From a virus: a DNA stretch of 21,569 bases. Within the stretch, counting starts at the first letter, position 1. Each line of letters starts with the position of its first letter. The position numbers and the translations under genes were made by a program. The DNA lies in the IMG/VR virus record IMGVR_UViG_3300046369_000917, positions 1 through 21,569 of that record, one strand, 5' to 3'. This document shows, piece by piece, positions 257 to 21,569 of the stretch. The notes below the pieces were generated by a model. That model searched no databases, was not told the origin of the DNA, and saw nothing but the letters and a program-made list of their open reading frames with translations.

Positions 257-1547
257 TATACAACATGCCGTTGTTGTACCTAAACATATAAAAGAAACAC
301 TAGACCGTGATTTATATCAAAGTTGGATGCTATACTATCAACGTGGACATTATGTAAAGCAAAGCACTAGCGAACATCCATTTGTTTTTGCTGAAACGGT
401 TGACGAAATACTTGCTATTATAAAAGATAAAGATACCGAATATTTAATATTAACATGGTTTGGTATGTATAGTTCAGACTTTTGGCATGTGCATGATCTT
501 TGTATAGACAATATTGAAAGTCACAGAACATTTGCACAAGACGAGTGGTCTGTTCTAAGTGACAATAATAAAAACACAATACAAATGGTAAATTTAAAAG
601 AGTGGAAAAAGCAAGGATGTCCTGCGTATGCCGACTTTAGTAAAAAATCTAAAACAATTAATAAGCGTATAGTAGAAAAATTACTAGATAGCAAGGCAAT
701 AGAAAATCCTAGAGCATGGAACGAAGAACTTTTACATTTCACCCAGCTACCTATTATACAAACCAATATTACTGATTTGCTTACAAAGCTAATAACTACA
801 CGAAATCCAAGACATGCTAACACGCACGATAAGGGCGTATTCTTCTTGTATAACACTGAAGCTATATGTACAGACAAAGAACGTCTAGGCACCGTACAGG
901 GCGCTATAAACACTGTTATAGGCCCTTGTAGCATGTTTAAAGCATTTATACTAGGAAGTAAGTATTTAAATGATGTTGACAATTATTTACACTTTGACAT
1001 ATTTGATCGAAACTTACAATGGAAAAAACTTATTACCGAAAACTGGAATGGTACAAAAAAAGGACTTATAAAAACATTAGAATTATGTCACGACGATGGC
1101 GACGGAGATTTTAGTTTTTGGAGTAACGGTAGTCAAAACATAATTGATAAACAATGGAATGTTTTAATTGAAGAGCTAGGTAGTGCAGAAAAGATTGAAG
1201 CAGCATGGAAAATATATCAAACAAAAAATCATGCATATGCATTAAGTAACATGTTGTTTGACGACACTGAAATTATTAATTGTTTAGAAAATTTTAATAT
1301 TACTGGTATATATCATGCTATAGGCGACATACCTGGATTTAGAAGTAATGCTTTACAGTTTGGATTGCAACAAATTAATAGTCTAACAAGAACACACCTT
1401 AAACGTGTTGCCAAAGTAAATCAAAATGTTTATGTAGATATAAAAGTTCCAGCGTCTGATTTACAGAAGTTTAAAAAGTATGATGAAATTATCGAAGATT
1501 TAGACAACGACTACGAAGAATTTTCTTTCGAACGATACTCAGAATAA
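249..1547 (+). CDS. Uncharacterised 432-residue protein, distant relative of the 9243-10604 product
   Basis: I do not recognise a defined family. The ATG at 249 follows GGAG (237-240) with 8-base spacing and overlaps the preceding stop by 8 bases. No signal peptide or membrane segment is evident. By eye it shares architecture with the protein at 9243-10604: an N-terminal alpha/beta part with EYLILTWFG (compare EHLVCIAKG), a middle FFLYNTEAI (compare FYVYNTDSN), and then a glycine-containing helix followed by a Trp-rich helical part (LQWKKLITENWNGTKKGLIKTL compare KQLYDTWDGKDYEKFIRSI). The N-terminal half vaguely recalls GT-A-type phage proteins, but no clear DxD nucleotide-sugar motif is seen there. 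The C-terminal 60 residues are charged. The last 37 bases overlap the end of the convergent radical SAM gene on the opposite strand. Function unknown. Confidence 0.85.
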   Translation: MYNIQHAVVVPKHIKETLDRDLYQSWMLYYQRGHYVKQSTSEHPFVFAETVDEILAIIKDKDTEYLILTWFGMYSSDFWHVHDLCIDNIESHRTFAQDEWSVLSDNNKNTIQMVNLKEWKKQGCPAYADFSKKSKTINKRIVEKLLDSKAIENPRAWNEELLHFTQLPIIQTNITDLLTKLITTRNPRHANTHDKGVFFLYNTEAICTDKERLGTVQGAINTVIGPCSMFKAFILGSKYLNDVDNYLHFDIFDRNLQWKKLITENWNGTKKGLIKTLELCHDDGDGDFSFWSNGSQNIIDKQWNVLIEELGSAEKIEAAWKIYQTKNHAYALSNMLFDDTEIINCLENFNITGIYHAIGDIPGFRSNALQFGLQQINSLTRTHLKRVAKVNQNVYVDIKVPASDLQKFKKYDEIIEDLDNDYEEFSFERYSE

Positions 1548-2752
1548 TTATCAAACAAGTTAGTGCCGTGATAGTTATCTAATGCGGCACTATAATCTAA
1601 AAACTGCTGCCATTTATCATTTCTATCTTCACTATTCATATAATTTAATGTATTAGTTGCAAACTTTTTGATTCTGTCAAGTTGTTTTTGTACATCAACC
1701 TTAACACTAACGTCTTGTATATATTCTTTTGCTTCATTATTGTACCATGCCCAAAATTCTTCCGTAATTTGGTGTTTTAATTCAGCAGGTAATAATTTTA
1801 TGTTTAGAGCTTCTGGATATTGTACTAGACTTGAATGAAAATATACATCTAAACTACAGAAATACTTAACAATATTAGTAAATCTTGTTATGTTGTATAA
1901 ATTTACTGTACACGTAGCACTGATATCAGTATTTGTCAGTGTATTATTTAATAATTTAATATTTTCTTCAACTTTATCTAAATTTCCTGCTGCTCTTACG
2001 TATTCGTAACAACTAGGATCGCCGTCTATACTTACTCGTAGCCATATTTTTTTAAAATTCTTCCATAAATCTAACACACTCTTGCCTTTGTATTCTAATA
2101 TGTTGAGATTTGTGTTGTAGCTTAGTCTAATATTTTTTGCATAAGGTTGCATGTCTTCTAAGAATTTGTAATGCTTACTATGATACAAAGGTTCACCGCC
2201 TGCAATCATTATTTCTTCTAAATTTGGTGCAAGCTCGTTTGCTATTTCGTCAACCATTTCCTGTGTTAGACTAACGTGTTTTACATCTTTTCTATATGTA
2301 CCGTACTCTACCATTTTATCTAGTAGAGCAGAATCACGTTTTACTGCCTGTTCCCATACGCTACTAAAATCTGGACTACAATGCCTACACATAAGATTAC
2401 AAATATTATCAAATCTTATTTCTACACTTCGTATATACTTCTCAGGAAAACTATAATCTTCGCTAATATTTTCTTTTACAAACTTTTCATCAACATAAGG
2501 AAAAGTTTGTGTGCATTGTTGACGAGTGCTTATACTACCGCTTTTTTCCATATCCCAACAACTACGACATCCAGTATTTTGAACACCATTAAGTAAATCT
2601 TTACGAACCTGCTTTATAGCATCATCATTCCATACTTCTTGTAATTTTTGTGTTCTGTAGTCACCAAGTTTATCTGGAAATCTCCAACAAGCACTTACTT
2701 TGCCTTCTTGTTTTATATTGAGATGTGTAAAGGGCATAGGACAAAAAGTCAT
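1511..2752 (-). CDS. Twitch-domain radical SAM protein (N-terminal twitch type)
   Basis: This 413-residue radical SAM enzyme carries an N-terminal twitch-like cysteine set: FCPMPF with C4, then C22, then C62 and C65 in a CRSC motif. These probably bind an auxiliary iron-sulfur cluster. The radical SAM core has CNLMCRHC (C118, C122, C125) for the 4Fe-4S cluster that cleaves S-adenosylmethionine, and AGGEPLY (185-188 GGEP) for SAM binding. The C-terminal part carries NIKLLPAEL, which recurs in its paralogues. Family knowledge: proteins of this layout are found in phages and their substrates are unknown. It is the last gene of the minus-strand run. Its start coincides with the preceding stop (1-base TAATG overlap), and its 3' end overlaps the convergent 249-1547 gene by 37 bases. 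Confidence 0.93.
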   Translation of the reverse strand: MTFCPMPFTHLNIKQEGKVSACWRFPDKLGDYRTQKLQEVWNDDAIKQVRKDLLNGVQNTGCRSCWDMEKSGSISTRQQCTQTFPYVDEKFVKENISEDYSFPEKYIRSVEIRFDNICNLMCRHCSPDFSSVWEQAVKRDSALLDKMVEYGTYRKDVKHVSLTQEMVDEIANELAPNLEEIMIAGGEPLYHSKHYKFLEDMQPYAKNIRLSYNTNLNILEYKGKSVLDLWKNFKKIWLRVSIDGDPSCYEYVRAAGNLDKVEENIKLLNNTLTNTDISATCTVNLYNITRFTNIVKYFCSLDVYFHSSLVQYPEALNIKLLPAELKHQITEEFWAWYNNEAKEYIQDVSVKVDVQKQLDRIKKFATNTLNYMNSEDRNDKWQQFLDYSAALDNYHGTNLFDNYSEYRSKENSS

Positions 2753-4113
2753 TACATTTTTCCTTTGTAATCTACATATGATTCAATCTGCTTCCACAAT
2801 TCAGGCAATGCATCTTGTAATTTTTGTTTACGTAATTTATCAAGGTCTGCACTAAATTCAACAAAGTCTTGTAAACTATTATTAGTTGGTTTGTTAAGAC
2901 TACTTATAATATGTTTTATCATGTATCTAAAGCGTACAAAGATTTCATATTCATCTAAATTATCAACTTGTTTTGATTGTTTTTTAATTATGTTTTCAAG
3001 TTTGGTAATTACGCCTTGTTTATCTGGCAACATTGTGCTAGTTAAGTATGCAGGAGTTTGTAACATTGTAGGACTAAATCTTGCTATCTCGTATATGTAA
3101 CTTACATCAGTACCTTGTTTATTTTTTCGAGTATTCTTTGAATACAAATCATTGTTTACAATAAATTTAGGTCCATAAATTTCTGTTTGTAAATTTTCCC
3201 ACCAATGCCACATATCAGGAAGTTGTAAAATATTATACAAACTAATAGTAGGTGAAAACACAATATCAAAATTTTCATGTTCTTTGGCTAAACTTAACCA
3301 TTTTTTTGCACTTTCTTCAACATCGCTCCATTTGCTAGGATATCTTATATAATCGTTTACATCTTCTAACCCATCTACACTTAAATATATCTGCACTAGT
3401 CCAAACTGTTTTAGTCTATCAATAATTTTAGCTTTAGGTACCCAACTACAATTAGTATAAATTTGTAGCATAATATTATCGGTATGTCCGCTTTCAATAA
3501 CTTTATCAATAAAAGGTATAAACGTAGGAACAATCATAGGCTCTCCGCCTGTCATTTTTATTAATTGTGTTTCTTTAAAATCATCAGCTGTAAAATCTAA
3601 ATTTATAATTTGAGGACGTTTACTAAAATCATATCTATCATCATAGTGTTTGCTAAGTTCTTTATCATCAGCATCCCACGTTGTACTTAAATCACTACTA
3701 CACATACGACATGCAAGATTGCAATATCGACCTGTAGTTAGTTCTAAATATTTAAAACTAAGTTCTTCGTTTACAGGTATTGGCCTAAATTCGTTTTGTT
3801 CGTTCCATGCATTATTAGCATTGAAGCGCATACTAAATTTATCGCCGGAGTCTTCTTTATCGCACTTATGACACCCTGGTATTTTTTTACCATCTAGCAT
3901 GTCTTGACGTAATTCACTCCAGAAGTCACTTTCCATTATTTCTTTAAATGACTTTTCTTTTACATTATATTGCGTCATAACAGGCTCGCCTTTGTCATTC
4001 CTGTAGGCAGCGTTCATATGGTCAAACCGACAACATGGTTTAGCTTGTCCGTTTGGTTTCAATTGCATATGAATCCACGGATATATACAAAAACTATTTT
4101 TTACTACTGTCAT
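2752..4113 (-). CDS. Twitch-domain radical SAM protein (N-terminal twitch type)
   Basis: A 453-residue paralogue of its downstream neighbour. N-terminal twitch cysteines are C9 (SFCIYPWIH), C27 and C28 (KPCCRF), then C81 and C84 (CHKC). The radical SAM cluster motif is CNLACRMC (C131, C135, C138) and the SAM-binding GGEP is at 189-192. The tail DLDKLRKQKLQDALPELWKQI matches a C-terminal pattern seen in the other twitch paralogues (LDK-R-x-x-x-L/F-x-D/E-A/V-x-P). The LNIxxLP signature of its paralogues is replaced by a looser STMLP, so it is a diverged copy. The ATG at 4113 lies inside the preceding gene (20-base overlap) with only a weak ribosome binding site, which suggests translational coupling. 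Reaction and substrate are unknown; a carbon-centred radical chemistry is expected from the family. Confidence 0.93.
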   Translation of the reverse strand: MTVVKNSFCIYPWIHMQLKPNGQAKPCCRFDHMNAAYRNDKGEPVMTQYNVKEKSFKEIMESDFWSELRQDMLDGKKIPGCHKCDKEDSGDKFSMRFNANNAWNEQNEFRPIPVNEELSFKYLELTTGRYCNLACRMCSSDLSTTWDADDKELSKHYDDRYDFSKRPQIINLDFTADDFKETQLIKMTGGEPMIVPTFIPFIDKVIESGHTDNIMLQIYTNCSWVPKAKIIDRLKQFGLVQIYLSVDGLEDVNDYIRYPSKWSDVEESAKKWLSLAKEHENFDIVFSPTISLYNILQLPDMWHWWENLQTEIYGPKFIVNNDLYSKNTRKNKQGTDVSYIYEIARFSPTMLQTPAYLTSTMLPDKQGVITKLENIIKKQSKQVDNLDEYEIFVRFRYMIKHIISSLNKPTNNSLQDFVEFSADLDKLRKQKLQDALPELWKQIESYVDYKGKM

Positions 4114-5134
4114 TTACATATACCGTTTTATTTTGAGTGTTCTTGCCGCATGTTCTTGCACATGTTAACAGTTTGCCTTCTGCTATACTTTTTAATTTAA
4201 ATCGTCTCTCAATATCATATAAATTTTCAATTGCTTCTTCAGGTGTAACTTTATGCAAATCAACTTTACTCATATCAAATTCTTGATTAAATTGATATGC
4301 TCCTGGACTATCGTGGTGCAATGTTCCTAAAAAACAACAAGGCATTAAATGACCTGTATGTGCTAAAAATAATTCTTTCCAATTTTGTATTTGACAATCA
4401 ATTTCTACATTATCAAACGGAGTAGGTTTATCTAATTTAAATTTAAATTGTGCAGGACCAGGAAAATGGTTTTGCTCACCAACATTTGGATGTCTATATT
4501 CAGGTGTTTCAGGAGGCTCTAAATCATACAAGCGATCACCGTCTTCCATAACTGCCCAGTTTTTATGTCCTCTAAACTTTTGTGTTACTTTGAGTCTAAA
4601 GTCCATACCTAAACTAGCAGCAAGTTCTTTTGCTTCTTCAACTTGATGTTCGTTGTGTTTAAAAACAATAAACGTCCACGCACCGTTGCCGCCTGCTTCT
4701 TGGAAAGCATTTACATTACGCCATACCTTATCCCAAACAACGCCACGTCTATATAAATGATTTGTATCTTCTAGTCCATCAAGTGCAAAATGTACTCTTG
4801 TATTCATTGCACCTAATTCTGCCCACCATTTTGCACTACGATATCCAGCGTTGGTATCTATTGCAACATCAACTTTATGTTTTTTAAACCACTTGACATA
4901 ATCTACTAAACTTTTATTTAGACAAGGATCTCCGTATACACCACTAAAGTATACATGATCTAAATTACCAGTTCGTTCTTCGGTAAAAAACTTATAAAAC
5001 ATTTCGTCTTCTAAGTCCATTGTATTAAGTCCTGGTTGTAAATATCCATCAGTGGTAAATCTACTGCACATAGGACATTTACTATTACATCTACCGCTGG
5101 CTTCTATATGTACACGTTTTAAATCAGGAACCAT
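4094..5134 (-). CDS. Radical SAM/SPASM-like protein
   Basis: The 346-residue protein starts almost directly with the radical SAM core: CNSKCPMC gives C16, C20 and C23. In the position of GGEP it has SGVYGDPCLN, a GDP-type variant shared with the 11617 paralogue. DGLEDTNHLYRR and KHNEHQVEEAKELA are conserved with the other two SPASM-like proteins here. The C-terminal part has C247, C266 and C267 (MPCCFLG), then C325 and C329 (CARTC), consistent with a SPASM- or twitch-type auxiliary cluster. SPASM proteins usually modify peptides or carbohydrates, but no substrate can be named. AAGGA about 7 bases upstream of the ATG supports the start. The gene begins on the last base of the preceding oxygenase gene (TAATG). 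Confidence 0.9.
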   Translation of the reverse strand: MVPDLKRVHIEASGRCNSKCPMCSRFTTDGYLQPGLNTMDLEDEMFYKFFTEERTGNLDHVYFSGVYGDPCLNKSLVDYVKWFKKHKVDVAIDTNAGYRSAKWWAELGAMNTRVHFALDGLEDTNHLYRRGVVWDKVWRNVNAFQEAGGNGAWTFIVFKHNEHQVEEAKELAASLGMDFRLKVTQKFRGHKNWAVMEDGDRLYDLEPPETPEYRHPNVGEQNHFPGPAQFKFKLDKPTPFDNVEIDCQIQNWKELFLAHTGHLMPCCFLGTLHHDSPGAYQFNQEFDMSKVDLHKVTPEEAIENLYDIERRFKLKSIAEGKLLTCARTCGKNTQNKTVYVNDSSKK

Positions 5135-5958
5135 TAAAGTTTCCTTGTTGTCATTAGGCTAAGTCCTGCTTTCATTGTTACTTTGTACTTAGGAAAGTCC
5201 ATGCCACTATGAGCTTGACATCGATCAAAGGCAATTAAACTTCCTCTATCCCAATTGTACATTGCTTCAAAATCAAATCCATCTAACCAGCGAGCTGGAA
5301 AATGACTTAGGTATTTTTCTCTTACTTCTGGATCAAACGATTTATTCCAATCAACTTCTTTTATACTACCGTCTTTATTGTAGCATGTTAAGTTATCATA
5401 ATTTCGAACTGTATAAAACACATCAGTATCATATTTACTATCACTTTTTGCAAAATTAGTACCATATTTTATAAATCTATTATCAAATAAACATGTGCCG
5501 CCGGGAGGATACTTGTCAGTACCCTTGTATGTTTTGTTGGTATGACCTACCCACAAAGGTATAATAATTTGTCTACCCGGTACTAGTCCGCGATCCATTA
5601 AATATTCTGGACGTCCTGTGTCAATGTGTAAATTGTAAGGACTTGCAGTCATGACAAAATTGCCTTCCCACATGCCTGTTTGCTCTAGCTCTGGTATATA
5701 CTTTTTCCATTTGTCAAAAAACTTATCTTCAATAGCAGCATTGTCGCTAAAGAAATGAAGTGTGCCAGTTTCTTTAACACGCATTTTATCATAACGTTTT
5801 AACATGTGTTCCTTGAGCCATTCTAGCTCATCTTCGTCCATAACGTCTTGTACTTGGAAACTATCGGTCCATGTTTCTTTCCATGCTGCATGGTACTCTT
5901 CTGGTACTTCAAAATCTATTTTTTCATTAGGGTCGGTGTCTAGTTTTGCTATACTCAT
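5134..5958 (-). CDS. 2OG-Fe(II) oxygenase-like protein
   Basis: A 274-residue protein with the layout of a non-haem Fe(II)/2-oxoglutarate oxygenase. NLHIDTGRP provides the HxD pair (H111, D113), RQIIIPLWV follows as the next core strand, and QAHSGMDFPKYKVTMKAGLSLM supplies the distal His (H250). A basic residue after it (K259 or K263) may bind 2-oxoglutarate. Such enzymes typically hydroxylate or desaturate a small molecule, sugar or side chain; the substrate is unknown. No secretion signal is present, so it is expected to act in the cytoplasm. It lies between an SDR-like gene (4-base overlap) and a SPASM-like radical SAM gene (1-base overlap), which fits a shared pathway. It is not obviously related to the hydroxylase-like genes at the window edges. 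Confidence 0.8.
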   Translation of the reverse strand: MSIAKLDTDPNEKIDFEVPEEYHAAWKETWTDSFQVQDVMDEDELEWLKEHMLKRYDKMRVKETGTLHFFSDNAAIEDKFFDKWKKYIPELEQTGMWEGNFVMTASPYNLHIDTGRPEYLMDRGLVPGRQIIIPLWVGHTNKTYKGTDKYPPGGTCLFDNRFIKYGTNFAKSDSKYDTDVFYTVRNYDNLTCYNKDGSIKEVDWNKSFDPEVREKYLSHFPARWLDGFDFEAMYNWDRGSLIAFDRCQAHSGMDFPKYKVTMKAGLSLMTTRKL

Positions 5959-6512
5959 TCTTCATTCCAATACTTGTCTTGCATAGGGTCTATACTTATT
6001 TCGTTAATTGCTAAACCCTTAGGTTGTTCTATAACCCACTTAATATATTCTGCTGCTGTGTCAATATCCATACATTGACGCTGGGGGTGTTTCATTGTAT
6101 TATTACTTAGCGTACCAAAACTAATATAAGTAATTTTTGGACTTACTCCCCATACACCGCTTATACCTAGTGTGTTACTATAATCTCTCAATGCCTTTTT
6201 TTCAGCATTGTATCGCCATGCTTTACCGTTTTTTACTCTGTCAGTTGTACTACCAATATTAATAATATGCGGACGATGTTTATGCTCTACGCACACTTTA
6301 TAAACTTCATCTAGTAAGTTTGTTTGATGAAATTTATAAAGAGCTGCACAGTTAATAAAAACATCATGATCAAGAACCATTTCGGCTAGTTTAACTTGAT
6401 CTGTTCTTAAACTTAAATCAAAGCCGGTGCTTTTACTACAATATTGAGCATATGGATATAATTTATATAACGCTGCTGCTACACCTTCGTTTATATTTCC
6501 TGTAATTATCAT
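5955..6512 (-). CDS. Short SDR-like (NAD(P)-binding) protein
   Basis: A 185-residue protein resembling a compact short-chain dehydrogenase/reductase or nucleotide-sugar epimerase relative. It starts with a strand and a TGNINEGVA turn, a degenerate form of the TGxxxGxG cofactor loop. NCAA at 54-57 matches the NNAG strand. The catalytic-type residues are S88 (IINIGST), Y101 and K105 (YNAEK), so the Ser-Tyr-xxx-Lys arrangement is intact. At 185 residues it is much shorter than the usual 250 or so, lacking most of the substrate-binding region. In this setting a role in altering a sugar or other small intermediate is plausible but unproven. It overlaps both neighbours by 4 bases (ATGA). The degenerate glycine loop leaves open an unusual cofactor or a non-catalytic role. 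Confidence 0.7.
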   Translation of the reverse strand: MIITGNINEGVAAALYKLYPYAQYCSKSTGFDLSLRTDQVKLAEMVLDHDVFINCAALYKFHQTNLLDEVYKVCVEHKHRPHIINIGSTTDRVKNGKAWRYNAEKKALRDYSNTLGISGVWGVSPKITYISFGTLSNNTMKHPQRQCMDIDTAAEYIKWVIEQPKGLAINEISIDPMQDKYWNEE

Positions 6513-7822
6513 ATGAACTCCGAAAAAATTGGTGCTGCATCTAACAAGTTTTCATTGCGTATCTTATCTAAGTCTTGTGTGTATTTTAAAAACTCGTTCC
6601 AGTGTGTATCATAATAACTATCACTAGTCATATACTTGACAATACTATTTTTTATATCTAATGCTTTATTAAAAGTATTTTCTGATAGATCTGCTTGTTC
6701 GCACCATTCAATAAATGACTCAAACTCATCAACTATACGTTGTTTCATTTCATCTGGTAACACTCTTATATTAAGATGCTTAGGATGGTGTGCTACATGA
6801 TTGGTAATTATAGGACGTTTTTTAGTACTATTAATTTTTTTAAAATTACTTTCTGTTAATTTCCATTTCATAAAATCAATCATATGATGCACGTTGTATG
6901 CTGTAACTGTAAATGCTAACCAACCCATTATATTAGGCGGGGTGTTATCTAGTATTTGTAAGTTTTTTAAGACCTTGTTCCATTTTGCAGGATGGCGTTG
7001 ATATTCAAGAACTGCACCCATGCCGTCAACACTTGCACCTACACGAACTTGTTTGAAACTTTCCCATAGTTTAACAACTCTAGGAGGTAGTGTGCTCATG
7101 TTTGTATTATATTCTACAATCATTTGCTTTGCACTTCCGTTTTCAATACAGCGTTCTAAAAAGTCGTAATGTCTTTCAATTAACAACGGTTCGCCACCAG
7201 CAAAATACACATGCTTAATATTTTGTGCATTTGCTTCAAGTTGTTCCCAAAATGGTTCGTAATTGGGCCAATCAAATTCAGTAGCACACAATTTATTACC
7301 AACTTGTTTAATTTCAATTTCGCCACTAGTATCTTTGAAAGTATTTTTACCTGTAAGTTTTATCCAATCATCGTACCATGCATCGCTGTCAGTAGGCCCA
7401 CACATTCTACACTTTAAGTTACAAAAATTACCAAAACGTAAATCATAATATTCAACAGGTGTTTCGTTTATATCAATACTACCGTCAAATTCAGTTTGCT
7501 GCATTGCTTTTTGTTTAGTAAACTTTGGCCAATTTTGTTGTTCGTATTGTCGTCTACTATTAAGTCCTGTTTCTTCTTCACTACGGCAACGTCCGCACTC
7601 TTCACTCCACTTGCCAGTAAGCATATTAGAACGTATAGTTTTCATAAAGTCGGCATTTCGAGCATCTTCTAAAACATCAACACCGGCGTTATATGCAGTG
7701 CCATCTTCTTTACGTATTACACCTTTGTTCTTTGTCACATTGGCTTGACAGCATACACGTATGTCGCCGTTTGCTCTTACTGCTTGGAATATCCAAGGAA
7801 TAGGACAAAATGTATCAGACAT
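6509..7822 (-). CDS. Twitch-domain radical SAM protein (N-terminal twitch type)
   Basis: A 437-residue member of the twitch radical SAM group. The N-terminal auxiliary cluster candidates are C6 (TFCPIPW), C24 and C25 (RVCCQA), then C76 and C79 (CGRC). The radical SAM motif CNLKCRMC gives C134, C138 and C141, and AGGEPLL places GGEP at 209-212. The C-terminal HLNIRVLPDEM and DLDKIRNENLLDAAP match the paralogue signatures. The next radical SAM gene upstream (7815-9215) is its closest companion by eye: both carry HHPKHLN/YHPPHLN and a FINK/FKKIN-type segment before it. It overlaps that gene by 8 bases and the SDR-like gene by 4. Its substrate is unknown. Confidence 0.93.
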   Translation of the reverse strand: MSDTFCPIPWIFQAVRANGDIRVCCQANVTKNKGVIRKEDGTAYNAGVDVLEDARNADFMKTIRSNMLTGKWSEECGRCRSEEETGLNSRRQYEQQNWPKFTKQKAMQQTEFDGSIDINETPVEYYDLRFGNFCNLKCRMCGPTDSDAWYDDWIKLTGKNTFKDTSGEIEIKQVGNKLCATEFDWPNYEPFWEQLEANAQNIKHVYFAGGEPLLIERHYDFLERCIENGSAKQMIVEYNTNMSTLPPRVVKLWESFKQVRVGASVDGMGAVLEYQRHPAKWNKVLKNLQILDNTPPNIMGWLAFTVTAYNVHHMIDFMKWKLTESNFKKINSTKKRPIITNHVAHHPKHLNIRVLPDEMKQRIVDEFESFIEWCEQADLSENTFNKALDIKNSIVKYMTSDSYYDTHWNEFLKYTQDLDKIRNENLLDAAPIFSEFI

Positions 7823-9215: not shown

Positions 9216-9242
9216 AACGTATTTATTCCATTAACTACGCAC

Positions 9243-12702: not shown

Positions 12703-12704
12703 TC

Positions 12705-14160: not shown

Positions 14161-15178
14161 TACCAAATCTCTCCTCTAACCAATCAAAGTCATTAATCTT
14201 TTTTAATTCTTCACTGTTGTGTTTACTACGAGCACCAAATACTGCTCCTGACTTTGCACCTTGGAATGCATAATCAGCAAAGTCTCCTGTACCTTTTGTA
14301 CACCAAGTAACAAGACGTTGTTGTGTTTCGTTATCTTTTTGTCTGTCTATTACACGACTACTTAGCTTTGCACATTCTCTAAATGCACTTTTCCATGTAT
14401 TAAAAGGATCAGTGTTAAATCCAGTAATGTTGCTTACTTTCATCATTGCTACAAATTTGTTACTGATACTTGTGGTCATATCAGGCTTACTTGTGTCCAT
14501 ATTAATTGTTTCTTCTCTTGGAAACAACTTTACTCCGCCGTATCCATATTCAAGACCGTTTACCGGGTTAATACTGCGCCAAACGTGTACTGCTTTACTA
14601 TTCCACCATTCAGGTACATAGTCAAAATTAAAGTTATCAACTATTTCAGCATCACCGTCAACTATCCAGACTCTGTCAGATGTACAAAGTTTTGCAGCTT
14701 CAATGTGTGCCTGGTGTATTCCTTTTACTCCATGTACCCGTTTAGCTCGTGGAAATCTTTCTAACAAATTTTGATAATTTTCATCTGCGTTTGGCTCTTG
14801 ATAGCTGATGAAAACTATATCACTTGTTTCACTTATTGGTGTGCTTGCAGAAATATCTGTAAACTTTTTGTTAATATAAAATCTAGCAGCAAGCTCTCCT
14901 GGCCCGTGATGGCTTCCTTTTGGCATAAGTGCAACACCGTCGTAATTTTTACCATTTAAAAATACGTGTGTATACTCTATATCAGCCGGCTTAGATGTGT
15001 ATGTAAAATCCCAATCATTATTGAGTTCTACTTCCGGATATACAATCCATAACATCTTTGTATTCGATTGTGCCTTTGCTGAAACAACGGATTCTGCCGT
15101 TTTAGCAATTATAAATTTTTGTTTTAACTTTAGGTACTGAGGATGATCATTTGATCCAATAAAATATATATCATACAT
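14147..15178 (-). CDS. Glycosyltransferase-like phage protein
   Basis: A 343-residue protein with IVFISYQEPNADENY, then RFPRAKRVHGVKGIHQAH, then RVWIVDGDAEIVDNF. The DGD at 174-176 fits the metal- and nucleotide-sugar-binding DxD of GT-A glycosyltransferases. I recall closely similar EPNADEN...VHGVKGIH proteins in T4-like cyanophages; their acceptor is unknown. An N-terminal stretch (MLWIVYPEVELNNDWDFTY) looks like a diverged copy of the DGD segment (VWIVDGDAEIVDNFNFDY), hinting at an internal duplication. It is the first gene of the 14-gene minus-strand run. The ATG has no ribosome binding site and falls at the predicted +1 of a TTGACA promoter, so it may be translated from a leaderless mRNA. 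Confidence 0.75.
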   Translation of the reverse strand: MYDIYFIGSNDHPQYLKLKQKFIIAKTAESVVSAKAQSNTKMLWIVYPEVELNNDWDFTYTSKPADIEYTHVFLNGKNYDGVALMPKGSHHGPGELAARFYINKKFTDISASTPISETSDIVFISYQEPNADENYQNLLERFPRAKRVHGVKGIHQAHIEAAKLCTSDRVWIVDGDAEIVDNFNFDYVPEWWNSKAVHVWRSINPVNGLEYGYGGVKLFPREETINMDTSKPDMTTSISNKFVAMMKVSNITGFNTDPFNTWKSAFRECAKLSSRVIDRQKDNETQQRLVTWCTKGTGDFADYAFQGAKSGAVFGARSKHNSEELKKINDFDWLEERFGNECK

Positions 15179-15184
15179 AAACTA

Positions 15185-15213
15185 ATTATTACACAGATCC
15201 GTGTTCCTGTCAA
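15185..15213 (-). promoter_or_regulatory. Sigma70-type promoter for the minus-strand run
   Basis: Read on the minus strand: TTGACA (15213-15208), 17 bases, AATAAT (15190-15185), 6 bases, then the ATG at 15178. The -35 is an exact consensus match and the -10 is partial. A TAATAA hexamer one base earlier gives 16-base spacing. The start codon sits where transcription would begin, with no Shine-Dalgarno sequence between. It would drive the run of 14 genes that starts with the glycosyltransferase-like gene. Confidence 0.5.
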
Positions 15214-15222
15214 CTATTTAAT

Positions 15223-15230
15223 GATAAATA
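15223..15230 (+). promoter_or_regulatory. Late-promoter-like GATAAATA
   Basis: GATAAATA differs by one base from the T4-type late promoter box TATAAATA. It lies in the only sizeable intergenic region, 87 bases upstream of the start at 15318, oriented toward the B12-type radical SAM and glycine-tetrad genes. A virion protein gene downstream makes late expression reasonable. One weak match in AT-rich sequence is not proof. Confidence 0.25.
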
Positions 15231-15233
15231 TTT

Positions 15234-15262
15234 TTTACATAATGATAAGCCTAGGATAATAT
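15234..15262 (+). promoter_or_regulatory. Possible sigma70-type promoter for the plus-strand genes
   Basis: TTTACA (15234-15239), 17 bases, TAATAT (15257-15262) on the plus strand, about 55 bases upstream of the ATG at 15318. The -35 matches the consensus at 5 of 6 positions and the -10 at 4 of 6. It would give a transcript with a leader of about 50 bases that contains the ribosome binding site of the radical SAM gene. In AT-rich DNA such matches arise easily, so confidence is modest. Confidence 0.3.
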
Positions 15263-15317
15263 TTAGGATTACATTCCAAGATCAAGTAGCAACTTTTGAT
15301 AAAGTTAAGGAAATTAT

Positions 15318-16940
15318 ATGTCAGAAATAATCATATTTAATGATTGTAACGGACCATTAGGATTTGGAAGATACGCAGGACCATATAGATTAGCAACAGA
15401 CTTGAGAGACAACGGGTTTACTGTTCAAGTTGTTGAATTTTATGGTGACATGGAAGTTGAAGAAGTCGAACAGGTAATAGAATCATGTGTTACAGACGAA
15501 ACTCTTTGGGTAGGGTTTGCAACAACGTTGTACGGTAAGCATCTTTCTTTCAAAGAACAACTAAAAGTATGGCTTACTCCTCCTATGGGCGCACTTTCGC
15601 AACTAGGTGAAATTTGGCATACGCTCTGGCCTCATACAGAAGAACAGACGCAAGGGTTTTTTAAAAAAATTAAAGAAACAAATCCCAAAACTAAAATTGT
15701 TGTTGGCGGCTATAAAGCATTATTAGAAAGTACTGAGAATGTAGACTATTGGATATTAGGACAAGGTGATGCATCTTCCATTGCATTATCAAAGCACTTA
15801 AAATTTGGCGACAAACTTAAAGTTATCGAAATGGAAAACAGCAACGTAATTACAGATAAGATGTACGACTTTGCAGGATTTAATGATAGTAAAATTGTAT
15901 GGCACAAATCAGATCATATTTTTCCAAATGAAGAATTACCAATTGAAACTGCTAGGGGATGTATTTTTAAATGTGCGTTCTGTGCTTTTAATCTAAATGG
16001 AAAGAAGTTTGGAGATTATACTAAAAACGGTGATACATTAAGAGACGAACTTATGTATAACTATGAACATTTCGGCACGACCGGTTATATGGTTAGTGAC
16101 GATACAATGAACGACAGTTTAACAAAAATAAAATATTTGCACGAAGTAATTACCAGTTTACCTTTCAAAATTAATATTAGCGGATTCTTACGTTTAGATG
16201 TTATTGCTGCCCAGCGTGAAATGATTCCTCTTTTGCACGAAATGGGACTAGTCACTGCCAACTTTGGTATTGAAACATTTAATCAGGAAGCTGGAAAAGC
16301 TATAGGCAAGGGTGCAGATCCTCAAATGTTAAAAGAGTTTCTCTATGAATTAAAAGACGCATGGAAGGACGATGTTTACACAGGGGCCAATTTTATTATT
16401 GGATTACCAAAAGAAAGTAAAGAAAGTGTTTTAGATACAATGGAGTGGCTACATAGGCCCGATGTACCGTTACATGTTATTGCATATAATAGATTATATA
16501 TTAAACAATTTAATAGAGGGATAAACCCATTACACATAAGCGATTATGATATGTTTAAATATGGATTTAAAAAATCAGTAGACGGGTGGCAATATAATGC
16601 TACTAGTAAAATTGAAGACGACTCTCAAAAATACGACATCCAGCATAACGAAAACGACATGAATTGGTTTGAATGGACATCTCCATATATGACAGCACAA
16701 GAAGCAGACCAACTTGTAGAACAATTCTATTATGATCCACGAAATGCACACAAAAAATTTACACTTGCTGGATTTGTACAGTATAATAGAATTAAAAATT
16801 TAGGGTATAACAAAGAAGAAACATATAGAGCACAAACAAATGACCCTAAATTTATAGTAGATGCTATAAACCAACGCAGAGATATGAAAGAACAATATCT
16901 ACAAAAACTTCTGATAAATAAGTGTAGGAGACAAACATGA
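15318..16940 (+). CDS. B12-binding-type radical SAM protein
   Basis: A 540-residue protein with the layout of class B (cobalamin-binding) radical SAM enzymes. Residues 1 to about 165 look like a B12-binding Rossmann fold: GPYRLATDLRDNGFTVQVVE, then IVVGGYKALLES and DYWILGQGDAS. The usual DxHxxG cobalamin His motif is not visible, so any cobalamin would be bound without a His ligand. The radical SAM core carries CIFKCAFC (C215, C219, C222), followed by a TIM-barrel pattern with FLRLDV, ANFGIETFNQEAGKAIGKG and GANFIIGLPKES. Relatives methylate carbon centres or rearrange rings; the substrate is unknown. AAGGA about 6 bases before the ATG supports the start. Its stop overlaps the start of the fibre-like gene as ATGA, so the two are probably coupled. 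Confidence 0.88.
   Translation: MSEIIIFNDCNGPLGFGRYAGPYRLATDLRDNGFTVQVVEFYGDMEVEEVEQVIESCVTDETLWVGFATTLYGKHLSFKEQLKVWLTPPMGALSQLGEIWHTLWPHTEEQTQGFFKKIKETNPKTKIVVGGYKALLESTENVDYWILGQGDASSIALSKHLKFGDKLKVIEMENSNVITDKMYDFAGFNDSKIVWHKSDHIFPNEELPIETARGCIFKCAFCAFNLNGKKFGDYTKNGDTLRDELMYNYEHFGTTGYMVSDDTMNDSLTKIKYLHEVITSLPFKINISGFLRLDVIAAQREMIPLLHEMGLVTANFGIETFNQEAGKAIGKGADPQMLKEFLYELKDAWKDDVYTGANFIIGLPKESKESVLDTMEWLHRPDVPLHVIAYNRLYIKQFNRGINPLHISDYDMFKYGFKKSVDGWQYNATSKIEDDSQKYDIQHNENDMNWFEWTSPYMTAQEADQLVEQFYYDPRNAHKKFTLAGFVQYNRIKNLGYNKEETYRAQTNDPKFIVDAINQRRDMKEQYLQKLLINKCRRQT
16926..16930 (+). promoter_or_regulatory. Ribosome binding site of the glycine-tetrad protein gene
   Basis: AGGAG six bases before the ATG at 16937, inside the end of the radical SAM gene. 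It is one of the strongest ribosome binding sites in the window, which fits a protein needed in quantity such as a virion component. Confidence 0.7.
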
Positions 16941-18214
16941 GTATAATACCTGGTGACACAGTAAGATTAACAATTACAGGCAGCGATAGCTCTGTTCTAG
17001 TAGATAGCTGGAGTAGTTCAATTAGAGGTCCTGTAGTAGGCAGTGACAATTCAACATTAGTCGATACTGCAAACAACGTACTATTAGGAAAACTCGACGG
17101 AGTATTGGCTGGGAATGTTACAGCTAGTAACGGCGCTGTTGTTTTAAATCCAGGTAGCACAGGTGCTGATGCTGTGTTTATAGGAGATGTCACAGGCGAC
17201 TTAGTTGGGGAAGTGTTTGGAGATGTCACAGGCAATTTACAAGGTGACGTAATTGACGATCAAGAAAATGTTATATTGGATGCCACTAATCGTACACTAA
17301 CAATAGATACTGTTACTGTACAAAACATTGTTTTACAAAACGATCTCACTGTTACTGACTTAACTTCAGCTACAGCAACTATCGGGCAATTATATGGCAC
17401 TCTGTTAGGCGATGTCTCTGGTCAACATTATGGAGAAGTGTTTGGCGATGTAACAGGTGACTTGACTGGTAATGTTACAGGTAATTTAATTGGCAATGTC
17501 GAAGGTGATGTTTTTGGAAACACAACCGGTGAGCATTTTGGCAATGTTGTCGGTGATGTTTTAGGTGACACAACTGGTACACACACCGGTAATGTCGAGG
17601 GCAATGTTGTTGGCGATTTAGAAGGTATGGTTAGAAATGAGTCCCATATAGGATTATCTATTTCAGACAATGGTATAATATCTATCGGCGGCAGTCCAAA
17701 CATTACCACAATATCAACTGGTCCAGAACTTGCTGATACTACATTAGTTAATAACTTTAGAGAAAAGAACGATTTTATAGTTGTTCCTCATTCAACAAAT
17801 TTAGCAGGACAACGTGCGCATTTTCATAGAGTAAGCAACGGAGAAAAAGCAAGTATAGCACCTGGCGAAATATTAGACTTTAAAGCAATATTAGCTCATA
17901 ACGGAACCGATTATGCACAAGCAGGAGCATGGGGTTATATTGCAGATCCAGAATCAACAATATCAAATACAGGCAGTATTAGAACACTATTTGGTGTAAG
18001 TGTAGCCGACGGAACAAATCCACCAGATATAATAGGACCAAAAAGATTAAGTGTAAACCACCAAGGTACAGTTGGCGGATATGCATTTCAAGCACACCCT
18101 ATCAACAGTACACAACGTAATGATTTAGACGCCCAAGCAGGTATGATTATTTTCAACAATAGTACAAATAAATTCCAAGGATATAATGGCAGTATGTGGG
18201 TTGACATAAGCTAA
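16937..18214 (+). CDS. Glycine-tetrad repeat virion/tail-fibre-type protein
   Basis: A 425-residue protein, probably an extracellular virion part such as a fibre or tail-associated protein. Residues 1-50 contain a repeated GSDxSxLVD unit. A short Gxxx block spans about 83-106 and a long one runs from G154 to G230, with Gly at every fourth residue for 20 consecutive positions (GDVT, GNLI, GNVE and similar). This regular spacing suggests a repetitive beta structure. The C-terminal 170 residues are a separate domain ending in GMIIFNNSTNKFQGYNGSMWVDIS, a tail typical of phage virion and fibre proteins, where it may be the trimer tip. No signal peptide or membrane segment is seen. Its start overlaps the stop of the B12-type radical SAM gene by 4 bases. 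Confidence 0.8.
   Translation: MSIIPGDTVRLTITGSDSSVLVDSWSSSIRGPVVGSDNSTLVDTANNVLLGKLDGVLAGNVTASNGAVVLNPGSTGADAVFIGDVTGDLVGEVFGDVTGNLQGDVIDDQENVILDATNRTLTIDTVTVQNIVLQNDLTVTDLTSATATIGQLYGTLLGDVSGQHYGEVFGDVTGDLTGNVTGNLIGNVEGDVFGNTTGEHFGNVVGDVLGDTTGTHTGNVEGNVVGDLEGMVRNESHIGLSISDNGIISIGGSPNITTISTGPELADTTLVNNFREKNDFIVVPHSTNLAGQRAHFHRVSNGEKASIAPGEILDFKAILAHNGTDYAQAGAWGYIADPESTISNTGSIRTLFGVSVADGTNPPDIIGPKRLSVNHQGTVGGYAFQAHPINSTQRNDLDAQAGMIIFNNSTNKFQGYNGSMWVDIS
17185..17629 (+). repeat. DNA encoding degenerate Gxxx tetrapeptide repeats
   Basis: Degenerate 12-base units encode glycine every fourth residue within the fibre-type gene. A closely repeated pair at 17207-17233 and 17431-17457 both encode GEVFGDVTG with synonymous differences, which points to an old internal duplication kept by selection on the protein. 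Between the two Gxxx blocks lies a non-repetitive stretch of about 48 residues. Such arrays can lengthen or shorten by recombination. Confidence 0.7.
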
Positions 18215-18229
18215 TCTTTATGCTATTAT
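18201..18229 (+). promoter_or_regulatory. Sigma70-type promoter at the end of the fibre-type gene
   Basis: TTGACA (18201-18206), 17 bases, TATTAT (18224-18229), 6 bases, then the ATG at 18236. The -35 is exact and the -10 matches at 5 of 6 positions. There is no Shine-Dalgarno sequence before this ATG. The spacing is identical to the element upstream of the minus-strand gene starting at 15178. The -35 lies in the last codons of the fibre-type gene. Confidence 0.5.
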
Positions 18230-18237
18230 AATAGCAT
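18220..18237 (+). repeat. Perfect 18-base palindrome over a start codon
   Basis: ATGCTATTATAATAGCAT is a perfect inverted repeat with no spacer. It contains the -10 hexamer of the proposed promoter and ends on the first two bases of the ATG at 18236. It could be an operator for a dimeric regulator. As RNA it could form only a weak AT-rich hairpin, and it is not followed by a U-tract, so a terminator is unlikely. Confidence 0.6.
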
Positions 18238-18895
18238 GAGTAAATTATATTTTGGAGTGTGTCCATACGGAACAGTATGCGATGTTTTTATTAATACATT
18301 AGCAGGTTGGAGTGACGAATGGGTACAACCATGCACACCCGATATAACCAATACAGGACATCTAATACACAACAATCATGAACAATATGTTTTAGATTTA
18401 ACCAACAATAATCCAATGCAATTTAGAAATATCGATTGGACAGATCGCCTGTCTGATATTGAAGCAGTTCTTAGTAATGCTGGAGATAAAAAAGTATGGA
18501 TTGGTAATTTTTCAAGCAAACAAGCAAGACTAATTAAAAAACATTTTGGTAGTGATGCGACTACTGTAGGAATTACATATACTCCTAACACACGTGATCT
18601 AGTATTAGAAAATGTAATTACATATTATTCTGGCTTATCTACCGAAACAGATAAAGAAAAATACAATGTAGGAATGAATGTAAGATATCAGATGAATAAA
18701 GACAAATGGGAAAAAATGGTTCCATACTCTTTTCAACTAGATACTGATTTTTCAATCGATCTTGCAGATTTTTTAAAGCCAGATAATTATATTGATGCGG
18801 TTGAACAGATTGACGGACTGCGAAATGAAAAACAATTAGAATATTATTTTACATGGTTGTTTAGAACCAAGGAGAGATTAAATGAAAATAAGTAA
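18236..18895 (+). CDS. Uncharacterised 219-residue protein
   Basis: No family is recognised. It opens with a strand and YFGVCPYGTVCDVFIN, which superficially resembles a nucleotide-binding start but has no Walker motif. A strand KKVWIGNFSS is followed by a helix and TTVGITYTP, suggesting an alpha/beta core, and then a charged helical C-terminal half. No signal peptide or membrane segment is seen. The ATG lacks a ribosome binding site and lies at the predicted +1 of a TTGACA promoter within an 18-base palindrome, so a leaderless transcript is possible. Its last 14 bases overlap the start of the TauD-like oxygenase gene. A transferase-type function would fit the fold impression, but this is only a guess. 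Confidence 0.8.
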   Translation: MSKLYFGVCPYGTVCDVFINTLAGWSDEWVQPCTPDITNTGHLIHNNHEQYVLDLTNNNPMQFRNIDWTDRLSDIEAVLSNAGDKKVWIGNFSSKQARLIKKHFGSDATTVGITYTPNTRDLVLENVITYYSGLSTETDKEKYNVGMNVRYQMNKDKWEKMVPYSFQLDTDFSIDLADFLKPDNYIDAVEQIDGLRNEKQLEYYFTWLFRTKERLNENK

Positions 18896-19970
18896 AATAC
18901 CCGGATGTGGAAGTTTTGGCGTTTTTATCGATGATGTCGACTTTAATAATATGACTGACGAACAATGGACAGATATCGGTAAGATACATCTTAAAGAAAT
19001 GGTTACAATAATACGTGGAGCAAAATTAGATAAAGACACGTATTATAAATGGATGAGAAAATGGGGTAAAGACCGCATGACATTTTGGGGATTGCTTTTC
19101 CAAAAGTATCCTTGGTGGAATGGTAAACTAGACAGCATTATGACACACCCAGATGTTAGCGAAGACGATAAAAATAGCATTTGGGGATTTTTCCGTGTAA
19201 GAGAAGGTGTTGGTCAAGAACAGGGCAATATTATCCGTGTTAGTGGCAAGAAAGACGAATACGGAAATCCATTAGGAATGTTCGCAGAAGGCGAGCTACT
19301 ATGGCATAGTAATGAAAGTGGTAATATAGCATTTGCCCCCGGTGTAGCACTGCTCGGAATGGAAGGCACAACTAAAAGTGCTACTGGATTCTTAACAACT
19401 GTTGATTACTATCAAGATGTAAGCGAAAGTTTCCGTAGTGAACTTGACGAAATGGTCTTACTACATAACTTTACACCAGGCAAAATTAACCCAGGTTTAA
19501 ACAGTAATCAAGATAATTTAATGTATAAAAATATGGCACCAGATCCTGATGCAGAGATTCCTATGGTAATACGCAGCCCGGGCGGACATAAAGGTTTGCA
19601 TTATAGTTTCAATACAGTTACAGGCATCAAAGGCATGTCTGACGCAGAAGCTCTCAAAGTACTAGAAAAAATTAAATCAGAATTAGAAGTAGACAAATAC
19701 ATTTACGATCATTGGTATAAACAAGACGGCGATTTGTGTTTGTTTGATAACAGCATTACACAACATAGACGTTTAGGTAGCACTGATAATAGACTATGCT
19801 TAAGGTATCAATACGATTATACACATTTGCAGGACGAACCGTGGATGCCCTATTTGCAACAACCTTATATTAATAGCTACATTGATCGTATTAGCTTTGT
19901 AGTAAATGCAATGCAAAACAAAGAATTTAAATTACCAAACAAGGAAACTTATGAAGCACTGGCATCTTGA
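18882..19970 (+). CDS. TauD/TfdA-type 2OG-Fe(II) oxygenase-like protein
   Basis: A 362-residue protein with the layout of TauD/clavaminate synthase-type oxygenases. FAEGELLWHSNES carries the first iron ligand H142. GDLCLFDNSITQHRRLG carries the distal His H295, and R308 (LCLRYQYDY) fits the 2-oxoglutarate-binding Arg. The expected HxD is H142-S-N144 followed by E145, so the usual Asp ligand is replaced by Asn. The protein may use E145, bind iron with two His, or be altered in activity. Typical members hydroxylate small molecules; the substrate is unknown. The start is supported by AAGGAGAG 5 bases before the ATG, and it overlaps the preceding gene by 14 bases. The downstream gene starts inside its last 20 bases. 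Confidence 0.85.
   Translation: MKISKIPGCGSFGVFIDDVDFNNMTDEQWTDIGKIHLKEMVTIIRGAKLDKDTYYKWMRKWGKDRMTFWGLLFQKYPWWNGKLDSIMTHPDVSEDDKNSIWGFFRVREGVGQEQGNIIRVSGKKDEYGNPLGMFAEGELLWHSNESGNIAFAPGVALLGMEGTTKSATGFLTTVDYYQDVSESFRSELDEMVLLHNFTPGKINPGLNSNQDNLMYKNMAPDPDAEIPMVIRSPGGHKGLHYSFNTVTGIKGMSDAEALKVLEKIKSELEVDKYIYDHWYKQDGDLCLFDNSITQHRRLGSTDNRLCLRYQYDYTHLQDEPWMPYLQQPYINSYIDRISFVVNAMQNKEFKLPNKETYEALAS
19941..19945 (+). promoter_or_regulatory. Ribosome binding site deciding the start at 19951
   Basis: AAGGA five bases before the ATG at 19951. The same frame also has an ATG at 19906, but nothing comparable precedes it and it lies deeper in the oxygenase gene. The later start is therefore preferred. Confidence 0.6.
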
Positions 19971-20562
19971 AACATATAACGGAACACAAGATTTAACAGA
20001 ATTTTTTATTGAAGCAGAAAAAAAGCGTTACTACAATAATAGTAACGCCGATATGCTTTTATCATCTCTTGACAACGAAAAAGATTCAACTCTATTTTTG
20101 TTATATAATTACGAAAACATTGTCGGTTGTGTTGTAAGTCATAAACTAACAGGCTTAGAAATACTAGGAAAAAATGCTTATCGTATCGGTGCTAGAATTT
20201 GCATGTTAGGAAACCTTGTACAAGGTGAACGTAATCATGGCTCGTTGCGCAATTTAAGAGGTGCTCCTAGACCACACGATCATCCAAGTGCGCAGTTTTT
20301 AATACCTGCTTGTATTGAGCACTGTGGCAGAGACACACCGTTATATATAAGTACACACCCTAGTCCTATTGCAAAACAAAGGGCAGTTCATACACGCTGG
20401 GCTCCAGAATGGCGTAAACAGGGCTTTTTAGAAGATCCTATTGAATTAGAGTACAGAGGTACAATACAAAGTTTTTGGAAATTTAAAGTAGATAATTACT
20501 ACAAAGAAATGCAAGACGAACGCTGGCCTGAGGCTGAAGAAATACTACCGGTTCTTACTTAA
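19951..20562 (+). CDS. Possible GNAT-like acetyltransferase
   Basis: A 203-residue protein from the ATG at 19951, chosen over 19906 by its ribosome binding site. The order of elements recalls a GNAT fold: an N-terminal helix (TQDLTEFFIEAEKKRYY), a strand STLFLLYNYENIVGCVVSHKL, a strand RIGARICMLGNL, and a C-terminal PLYISTHPSPIAKQRAVHTRW with a helix. The usual acetyl-CoA loop (Q/R-x-x-G-x-G/A) is not visible, so the assignment is weak. A His- and Arg-rich loop GAPRPHDHPSAQ is conserved-looking. It overlaps the TauD-like gene by 20 bases, and its 3' end overlaps the convergent hydroxylase-like gene by 18 bases. If it is an acetyltransferase, acetylation of a sugar or amino group would fit the island. 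Confidence 0.45.
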   Translation: MKHWHLETYNGTQDLTEFFIEAEKKRYYNNSNADMLLSSLDNEKDSTLFLLYNYENIVGCVVSHKLTGLEILGKNAYRIGARICMLGNLVQGERNHGSLRNLRGAPRPHDHPSAQFLIPACIEHCGRDTPLYISTHPSPIAKQRAVHTRWAPEWRKQGFLEDPIELEYRGTIQSFWKFKVDNYYKEMQDERWPEAEEILPVLT

Positions 20563-21243
20563 CATTTCATCTGCTTGCTTCTTGCGTTTTTCATACTGAT
20601 TTTGTTCAAACAAGTCTTCCCAATTATTGGGTAATTCAAAATCTGAAGCAAGATAATAATCCTCAAACTTTTGATAACTTTGATCTAATAAATTTACATA
20701 ATCTTGATCAGTGTAACTGCCGTCCCATGGTGCGCCTAATGCTAGAGTAAATTTTGTATCTCCTGATGTGTTGTGCATCTCGTGAGGCCATTTACCGCTC
20801 ATTACAAATGGCTTATCTATTGCAGTTGGCGTTACACTGGTATCTTTTCCTATAAAGTCCAAGTCATCTACATTACCTTGCATAACATATCTAAACTTGT
20901 GCTGCGATGTGTTAAACATTTCAGGACTACAATCAATATGTAATGGATTCTTATAATCATTAGGTGTAGTAATAATCATTATTCTACTACGTTGTTTTGT
21001 AATTTTGAATAGTACGTCTTCGCACCATTGTTTTAGTTTAGGCATTTCAAATGCCCAAGGCATCCATTGAAATTTATCTTTATCCGTTGGATTATACATA
21101 ACTGGCACATGCCAACAATTTCTATATTCGTCTTGATATATTTTGCTAAAATCTAAACTGTTTAAATAATCCATATGATCTAATGGAGGATTTTCAATAT
21201 CTAGAGGCAAGTATAGTAAGTCGTCAAATAATTGTTTATCCAT
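20545..21243 (-). CDS. Aspartyl/asparaginyl beta-hydroxylase-like 2OG oxygenase
   Basis: A 232-residue protein from the ATG at 21243, which overlaps the preceding stop by 8 bases. A longer frame from 21273 is possible but less likely. NPLHIDCSPEMFNTSQHKFRYVMQGN supplies the HxD pair (H102, D104) and the family's following strand. PHEMHNTSGDTKFTLALGAPW supplies the distal His (H157) and a basic residue (K164) that may bind 2-oxoglutarate. The arrangement matches the aspartyl/asparaginyl beta-hydroxylase fold, as in the partial gene at the left edge. The substrate could be a protein side chain, peptide or small molecule. It is the partner gene of a twitch radical SAM gene upstream and converges on the acetyltransferase-like gene with an 18-base overlap. 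Confidence 0.7.
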   Translation of the reverse strand: MDKQLFDDLLYLPLDIENPPLDHMDYLNSLDFSKIYQDEYRNCWHVPVMYNPTDKDKFQWMPWAFEMPKLKQWCEDVLFKITKQRSRIMIITTPNDYKNPLHIDCSPEMFNTSQHKFRYVMQGNVDDLDFIGKDTSVTPTAIDKPFVMSGKWPHEMHNTSGDTKFTLALGAPWDGSYTDQDYVNLLDQSYQKFEDYYLASDFELPNNWEDLFEQNQYEKRKKQADEMLSKNR

Positions 21244-21569
21244 TTGTATCTTTACACAAATCAAAAAAGTCACTCATTTCAGGAAATGCTTCTTTGAAGT
21301 TTGTATTCCTTCTTTTATCATGTTCGTTAAAGAAACGCCAGAAGTCAATTCGTCCTTGCATAACCTTGGCTGGATCATAGTTAGTACTATCCATATAATC
21401 TACTACCCGTCTAAAGCGTTCATATTCCATTGTAGTAAATGCATCTTTACGTTCGTCATCTAAGTTGTCTTTGATAAACTGTAAATGACTGTGCATATAC
21501 TCCATGTATTCTTGTGGTAAAATATTTATATCGTACTGCAACGGCTCTTTCAAATAAGGTGTATCAAAC
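21236..21569 (-). CDS. Twitch-domain radical SAM protein, C-terminal part
   Basis: The frame is open at the right edge, so the N-terminal twitch and radical SAM core lie outside the window. About 110 C-terminal residues remain. They match the end of the four complete twitch radical SAM proteins here: TPYLKEPLQYDINILPQEY corresponds to the LNIxVLPxE signature, RVVDYMDSTNYDP to the YMxSE/TS segment, and EHDKRRNTNFKEAFPEM to the LDKxRxxxxxDAxP tail. The assignment rests only on this similarity. It overlaps the following hydroxylase-like gene by 8 bases. Confidence 0.75.
   Translation of the reverse strand, partial: FDTPYLKEPLQYDINILPQEYMEYMHSHLQFIKDNLDDERKDAFTTMEYERFRRVVDYMDSTNYDPAKVMQGRIDFWRFFNEHDKRRNTNFKEAFPEMSDFFDLCKDTNG

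Follow-up and report, generated by a model that had tools for sequence, protein, structure and literature searches.

An overlapping 14-gene operon with seven radical SAM enzymes in a marine viral fragment, and a core module in common with Bdellovibrionota

The 21,569-base viral fragment IMGVR_UViG_3300046369_000917, analysed here over its whole length and called the window, carries a dense set of radical S-adenosylmethionine (SAM) genes, seven of which sit in a 14-gene operon on its minus strand, hereafter the left operon. An earlier note had listed eight complete radical SAM open reading frames (ORFs), at 1511, 2752, 4094, 6509, 7815, 10601, 11617 and 15318, all of which keep the CxxxCxxC motif intact, and, at the right edge, the tail of a ninth. 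Coordinates and motifs proved correct, and these genes make up 48% of the window length. Profile searches assigned most of the frames to the radical SAM family: seven of the eight complete proteins passed the cut-off of the Pfam Radical_SAM model PF04055, the exception being 10601-11620, which matches radical SAM models at about 1e-11, and four full proteins scored 299-423 bits against the NCBIfam N-terminal twitch model NF033640 (curated cut-off, 170 bits), in agreement with the twitch label in the note. The ninth gene, c14 (21236-21569, minus strand), an N-terminal twitch enzyme, is present with its last 110 residues only, which match NF033640 at 49 bits over model positions 307-398. Its complete form, encoding 457 aa with CxxxCxxC, was found at 25873-27246 of contig G015 (80 kb, same species as the window) and is identical to the window in the overlap. 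The note's other architectures held up in part. As to a SPASM-like C-terminus, the three compact enzymes (4094, 10601 and 11617) matched no SPASM profile (PF13186, TIGR04085); their C-terminal cysteines are conserved. As to B12 binding, PF02310 reached 17.4 bits in 15318 against a cut-off of 32.1, while B12-radical-SAM models do align across that region.

The left operon runs from 15178 down to 1511, with overlaps of 1-43 nt and one 27-nt gap. Its first gene, c3 (14147-15178; 61 records), has no Pfam match; the AlphaFold2 (AF2) model (predicted local distance difference test score, pLDDT, 85) matches glycosyltransferases weakly, with a best Foldseek E of 1.2e-5 and a template modelling (TM) score of only about 0.26, so c3 models as GT-A-like and its putative glycosyltransferase activity is a matter of fold resemblance. 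The following gene, c18 (13273-14166; variant c5 elsewhere), is predicted to encode a class I SAM-binding Rossmann protein with an N-terminal helical domain (AF2 pLDDT 82), whose model resembles methyl- or aminoalkyl-transferases, with spermidine synthase, nicotianamine synthase and methyltransferases as Foldseek matches at an E of about 2e-6. When the profiles of 14147 and 13273 were compared by sequence with solved structures, nothing matched. Next come c2 (13052-13276), a conserved 74-aa protein with no family name, 246 viral_contigs matches and a pN/pS of 0.03, and c22 (12705-13055), a 116-aa accessory protein in 14 records. The compact core enzyme c1 (11617-12714; PF04055 34 bits; 82 records) gave only a marginal match to a solved structure, NifB, and is followed by the divergent compact enzyme c20 (10601-11620; NF033640 9e-12, no Pfam match) and by c32 (9243-10643), a 466-aa protein with no family match. 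The central core enzyme c0 (7815-9215) is of the N-terminal twitch type (NF033640 423 bits; 145 viral_contigs matches) and is matched marginally by the structures of SkfB and tRNA deaminase. Downstream of it lie a second twitch enzyme, c7 (6509-7822; 379 bits; 43 records), the short-chain-dehydrogenase-like c9 (5955-6512), whose profile reaches short-chain dehydrogenase/reductase chains in the PDB at an E of about 0.01 only, and c38 (5134-5958), which has no family or profile match and was read by eye only as a 2-oxoglutarate (2OG) oxygenase. The operon ends with the compact enzyme c44 (4094-5134; PF04055 47.6 bits) and two more twitch enzymes, c51 (2752-4113; NF033640 299 bits) and c37 (1511-2752; 314 bits), both with SPASM PF13186 at the N-terminus.

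The 139-bp divergent region at 15179-15317 has, in an arrangement conserved in relatives, a sigma70-type promoter that faces the left operon and the late-type motif GATAAATA that faces the fibre operon on the opposite strand. The former, TTGACA-17-AATAAT at 15213-15185, means little by itself because a shuffled version of the region is expected to hold 3.7 promoter-like sites; among 19 distinct intergenic sequences from relatives, however, 7 have the perfect TTGACA-17-TATAAT. In 16 of these 19 (1.4 expected), ATAAATA appears as its reverse complement, directed towards the fibre gene, and ATAAATA is enriched directly upstream of genes genome-wide in three contigs, with six such genes in G015 against 0.13 expected. 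By analogy with T4, this arrangement suggests that the operon is expressed early and the fibre late, a timing judged from sequence motifs. ATAAATA also stands directly before c0 in the window (9216-9242); as a shared element it was rejected, being present in only 7 of 51 distinct sequences.

The eighth complete radical SAM gene, the B12-type c33 (15318-16940, plus strand; PF04055 58.6 bits), lies outside the left operon, in the opposite-strand operon that contains the fibre gene. PhpK and ladderane-type B12 models matched it at 65-73 bits, under their cut-offs, and its viral_contigs matches are only near-identical ones (about 99%). It overlaps by 4 nt the plus-strand gene c27 (16937-18214), which encodes a fibre-like structural protein with GDVTGD-type repeats, a C-terminal match to unnamed phage families and an N-terminal family found in 50 records. 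Then follow, on the same strand, c28 (18236-18895), with no family match above cut-off, and the TauD-family 2OG oxygenase c29 (18882-19970; PF02668 4e-15, phrog_24590 1e-147). Towards the right edge, neither c12 (19906-20562, plus strand; 34 records) nor c39 (20545-21273, minus strand) has a family match; they look acyltransferase-like and oxygenase-like, respectively, by eye only. At the left edge, the end of an Asp/Asn hydroxylase-like oxygenase (2-256, plus strand; PF05118 9e-4, under the curated cut-off) is followed by c99 (249-1547, plus strand), which has no family match and adjoins the 3′ end of the operon.

The species was characterised further through G015, whose proteins are 74-100% identical to those of the window, most genes at 94% or more. 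Besides the complete ninth radical SAM gene, this contig holds part of a further one, c11, and, outside the span of the window, a T4-type (gp23-type) major capsid gene, which places the species among the T4-like phages. The capsid protein is 64-71% identical to those of the phages that match it best, most of them jumbo phages (Vibrio phage 2.275.O, PA5oct and GAP32 among them). By these sequences, the source is an uncultured marine T4-like phage with a capsid related to those of jumbo phages.

The order c3, c18 or c5, c2, c1, c0 is largely kept over 86 loci, while the neighbouring genes vary. Genes of the relatives were called by a simple longest-ORF script, so that their start positions and small genes are approximate. 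Ratios of nonsynonymous to synonymous differences (pN/pS), taken as uncorrected proportions with synonymous sites near saturation in most pairs, ranged from 0.03 to 0.39 for the comparable window genes, with c2 at the lower end and the fibre gene at the upper; 15318, which has no comparable homologue, stood outside this comparison. Since the comparable genes are under purifying selection, the radical SAM set is not a chance assembly. The fibre-like gene adjoins the GT-like gene, in divergent orientation, in 39 of the 47 records that have it, and two cassette types pair with different fibre types in 10/10 and 27/27 classified records, a pairing that may be mere linkage. Among the families carried as cargo by the phage islands are Asp/Asn hydroxylase, nitroreductase, desaturase, TauD, AMP-binding, Asn synthase, nucleotidyltransferase, UDP-sugar dehydrogenase, carbamoyltransferase and halogenase families. 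In the islands of relatives (loci L008-L093) we saw a Trp halogenase, fatty acid desaturases, carbamoyltransferase and QueC-like PP-loop proteins.

We then compared the density of radical SAM genes, which the earlier note had called exceptional for a phage. Nine cultured phages have 0-6 PF04055 matches each (0.6 per 100 kb). A fairer background, though many of its contigs are short, is the set of 24 environmental contigs selected by capsid, with a median of 0 matches, 1.6 per 100 kb and a maximum of 12 in 374 kb; the median is also zero for capsid-selected relatives of 20 kb or more. In contrast, 25 contigs sharing c0 have 4-19 matches, or 13 per 100 kb, although the choice of this set through a radical SAM gene biases it upward. 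In 41 relatives represented by 20 kb or more, motif ORFs number 6-13 per 21.6 kb (median 9), so the window, with 8, is ordinary in its own lineage. The cluster is therefore rare in the tested cultured phages and commonplace in a single uncultured marine lineage, and the claim of the note stands against the former and the capsid-selected relatives, but not within the latter. A DNA-level search of cultured phages gave no match, and protein searches of them gave only distant matches, in Vibrio phages K566/K567 and Mosig, with none for the 15318 protein. Vibrio phage K566 (255 kb) has three annotated radical SAM genes clustered at 156937-173536 (L298) and six PF04055 matches genome-wide.

A core module was recognised outside phages, consisting of c0 (7815), c1 (11617), c11, which lies just outside the window, and the GT-like and SAM-transferase-like proteins. 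Full-length homologues of c0 occur in metagenome-assembled genomes (MAGs) of Bdellovibrionota at about 55-64% identity, on contigs of up to 936 kb, several with housekeeping neighbours, and are accompanied there by a nearby c1 (about 47% identity), c11 (about 65%) and GT- and SAM-transferase-like genes. At E-value limits that we set ourselves, c0 was found in 15 of 291 sampled Bdellovibrionota genomes, together with c11 in 15/15 and c1 in 14/15; among carriers outside profile building the counts were 6/6 and 5/6. The p-values of this co-occurrence overstate independence because the sampled genomes are related. In the c0 tree, whose root is uncertain because the outgroup is very distant, the phage clade, including phage-like contigs binned into MAGs, falls inside the Bdellovibrionota sequences, beside Bacteriovoracia. 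The core is probably an ancient acquisition from a Bdellovibrionota-like bacterium. Contigs with c0 in MAGs labelled Neisseriaceae, Rickettsiales, Gammaproteobacteria, Chloroflexi and Acidimicrobiaceae (L123, L132, L133, L136, L137) fall in the phage clade, and several of them look like phage contigs binned with MAGs. The tested Bdellovibrionota genomes have 10-33 N-terminal twitch matches each, and family-2 glycosyltransferases come first among the non-radical-SAM proteins of the bacterial islands, which also include Asp/Asn hydroxylase and QueC families. In two of these islands (G030:C1:745513-774880 and G040:C192), over a dozen N-terminal twitch genes are packed into some 30 kb. A search for fibre homologues in the Bdellovibrionota loci found none. 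The small protein c2 was seen only in phage contigs and, as it was absent from the Bdellovibrionota loci examined, it was ruled out as the common substrate of the bacterial module.

Marine T4-like genomes rich in radical SAM genes are already known. TARA_ERS488813_N000010, a 183-kb marine T4-like environmental genome, has 12 radical SAM genes, which its authors called Fe-S proteins (Nishimura et al. 2017, PMC5332604); compared by description, it differs in that the relevant section of that paper sets out neither a module nor an operon or a function. The host recognition cluster of pelagimyophages, as presented in the corresponding part of Zaragoza-Solas et al. (2020, PMC7029224), is likewise variable, lies close to tail fibre genes and contains radical SAM cassettes and glycosyltransferases. 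However, the capsid of the window species is nearest to those of jumbo phages, and the cultured pelagiphages HTVC008M and Mosig have 1 and 2 PF04055 matches. Pelagibacter phage Mosig EXVC030M (MT647606) carries MoaA-annotated genes with Asp/Asn hydroxylase, nitroreductase, desaturase, TauD and carbamoyltransferase genes, in an analogous smaller island (L299, 56458-68955) that also has a sugar aminotransferase, but it has far fewer radical SAM genes, and tblastn with 7815 found no match in it. The NF033640 proteins of Bdellovibrionota belong to the same family and have the same c0/c1/c11 core clustered with glycosyltransferases, whereas their loci are chromosomal. In the literature searched, whose coverage left out most subscription journals and preprints, there was no description of the c0/c1/c11 module or of the operon and promoter arrangement. 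What is new is that one overlapping operon of 14 genes, preceded by a conserved sigma70-type promoter, encodes seven of the enzymes and diverges from a fibre gene that has a late-type motif, and that the core is also found in Bdellovibrionota.

The note had further suggested that all nine enzymes serve one multi-step pathway. For the core this is well supported: the operon is a single overlapping one, its promoter is conserved, and c0, c1 and c11 occur together in bacteria. It is less well supported for the variable cassettes, as those round the core differ between phages and 15318 sits in the opposite operon. As to the product, our leading but still tentative reading is that the island tailors a surface glycoconjugate, with substrate and chemistry predicted. 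Seven radical SAM enzymes and the GT-like, SAM-transferase-like and dehydrogenase-like proteins would be made from one operon, driven by a sigma70-type and probably early promoter. Each radical SAM enzyme, going by its family, would cleave SAM reductively and abstract hydrogen from its substrate, and together with the glycosyltransferase and the transferases these enzymes would make or remodel unusual sugars on a glycoconjugate at the surface of the infected cell. The altered surface might change a receptor or exclude rival phages, and the variable cassettes might diversify the product. We favour this reading because of the GT-like c3, the SAM-transferase-like c18, the family-2 glycosyltransferases of the bacterial islands, the phage cargo and the Mosig island; the tight operon, the conserved divergent promoter region, the purifying selection and the co-occurring core also count in its favour. 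Several points weigh against it: both proteins match known structures only weakly (TM about 0.26 and 0.4), no sugar-nucleotide enzyme scored above its profile cut-off within the window, the early timing was read from promoter motifs only, and twitch/SPASM-type enzymes act on peptides as well as sugars.

The adjacency of the fibre gene and its association with cassette type fit protein modification equally. The enzymes could be post-translational modifiers of the phage's fibre or other structural proteins (through epimerisation, crosslinks, C-methylation or hydroxylation), in the manner of a toolkit for ribosomally synthesised and post-translationally modified peptides that works on a repeat protein, and the 4-nt overlap of the B12-type enzyme with the fibre gene and the TauD oxygenase downstream speak for this too. 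We consider it somewhat unlikely, however, in view of the fibre-less bacterial loci and the different promoter types of fibre and operon; the adjacency may also be plain linkage and shared descent. A diffusible small molecule or cofactor derived from a peptide or sugar, similar to a natural product and made during infection, appears improbable. The AMP-binding enzymes, Trp halogenase, Asn synthase, QueC-like proteins and carbamoyltransferase in the cargo of relatives would suit it, and c2 beside a GT, a SAM transferase and radical SAM enzymes recalls mycofactocin gene sets in outline, yet c2 is missing from the bacterial loci examined and shows conservation over most of its length, and no gene stood out as a dedicated precursor, for which the operon leaves almost no intergenic room.

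The strong differences between the cassettes of relatives could also mean that these are unrelated accessory genes of a hypervariable island with no joint product, but the single overlapping operon, the purifying selection and a co-occurring core common to bacteria make this about as improbable as a small molecule. Least probable, and quite remote in our judgement, is a role in anti-defence or nucleotide chemistry, through viperin-like enzymes or DNA modification of the 7-deazaguanine type. Relatives' islands do hold QueC-like PP-loop proteins, there are weak hits to viperin models, and the candidate-defence model PDC-M51A gave 52 bits for 15318, but no QueC-like gene lies within the window, and prokaryotic viperin was rejected on its low scores (17-30 bits in PADLOC; 16-24 bits in NCBIfam, where the cut-off is 180). 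It is conceivable, if somewhat unlikely, that the bacterial multi-radical-SAM core module in a phage lineage yields an undescribed class of product early in infection, coupled to fibre type.

With c0, c1, c11, the glycosyltransferase and the SAM transferase, present in bacteria and phages, there is now a defined target for working out the products of multi-radical-SAM islands, an issue that has stood since radical-SAM-rich phage genomes were first noted. If the tailoring of a surface glycoconjugate is true, it would tie oxygen-sensitive radical chemistry to the phage-host surface interaction at sea.

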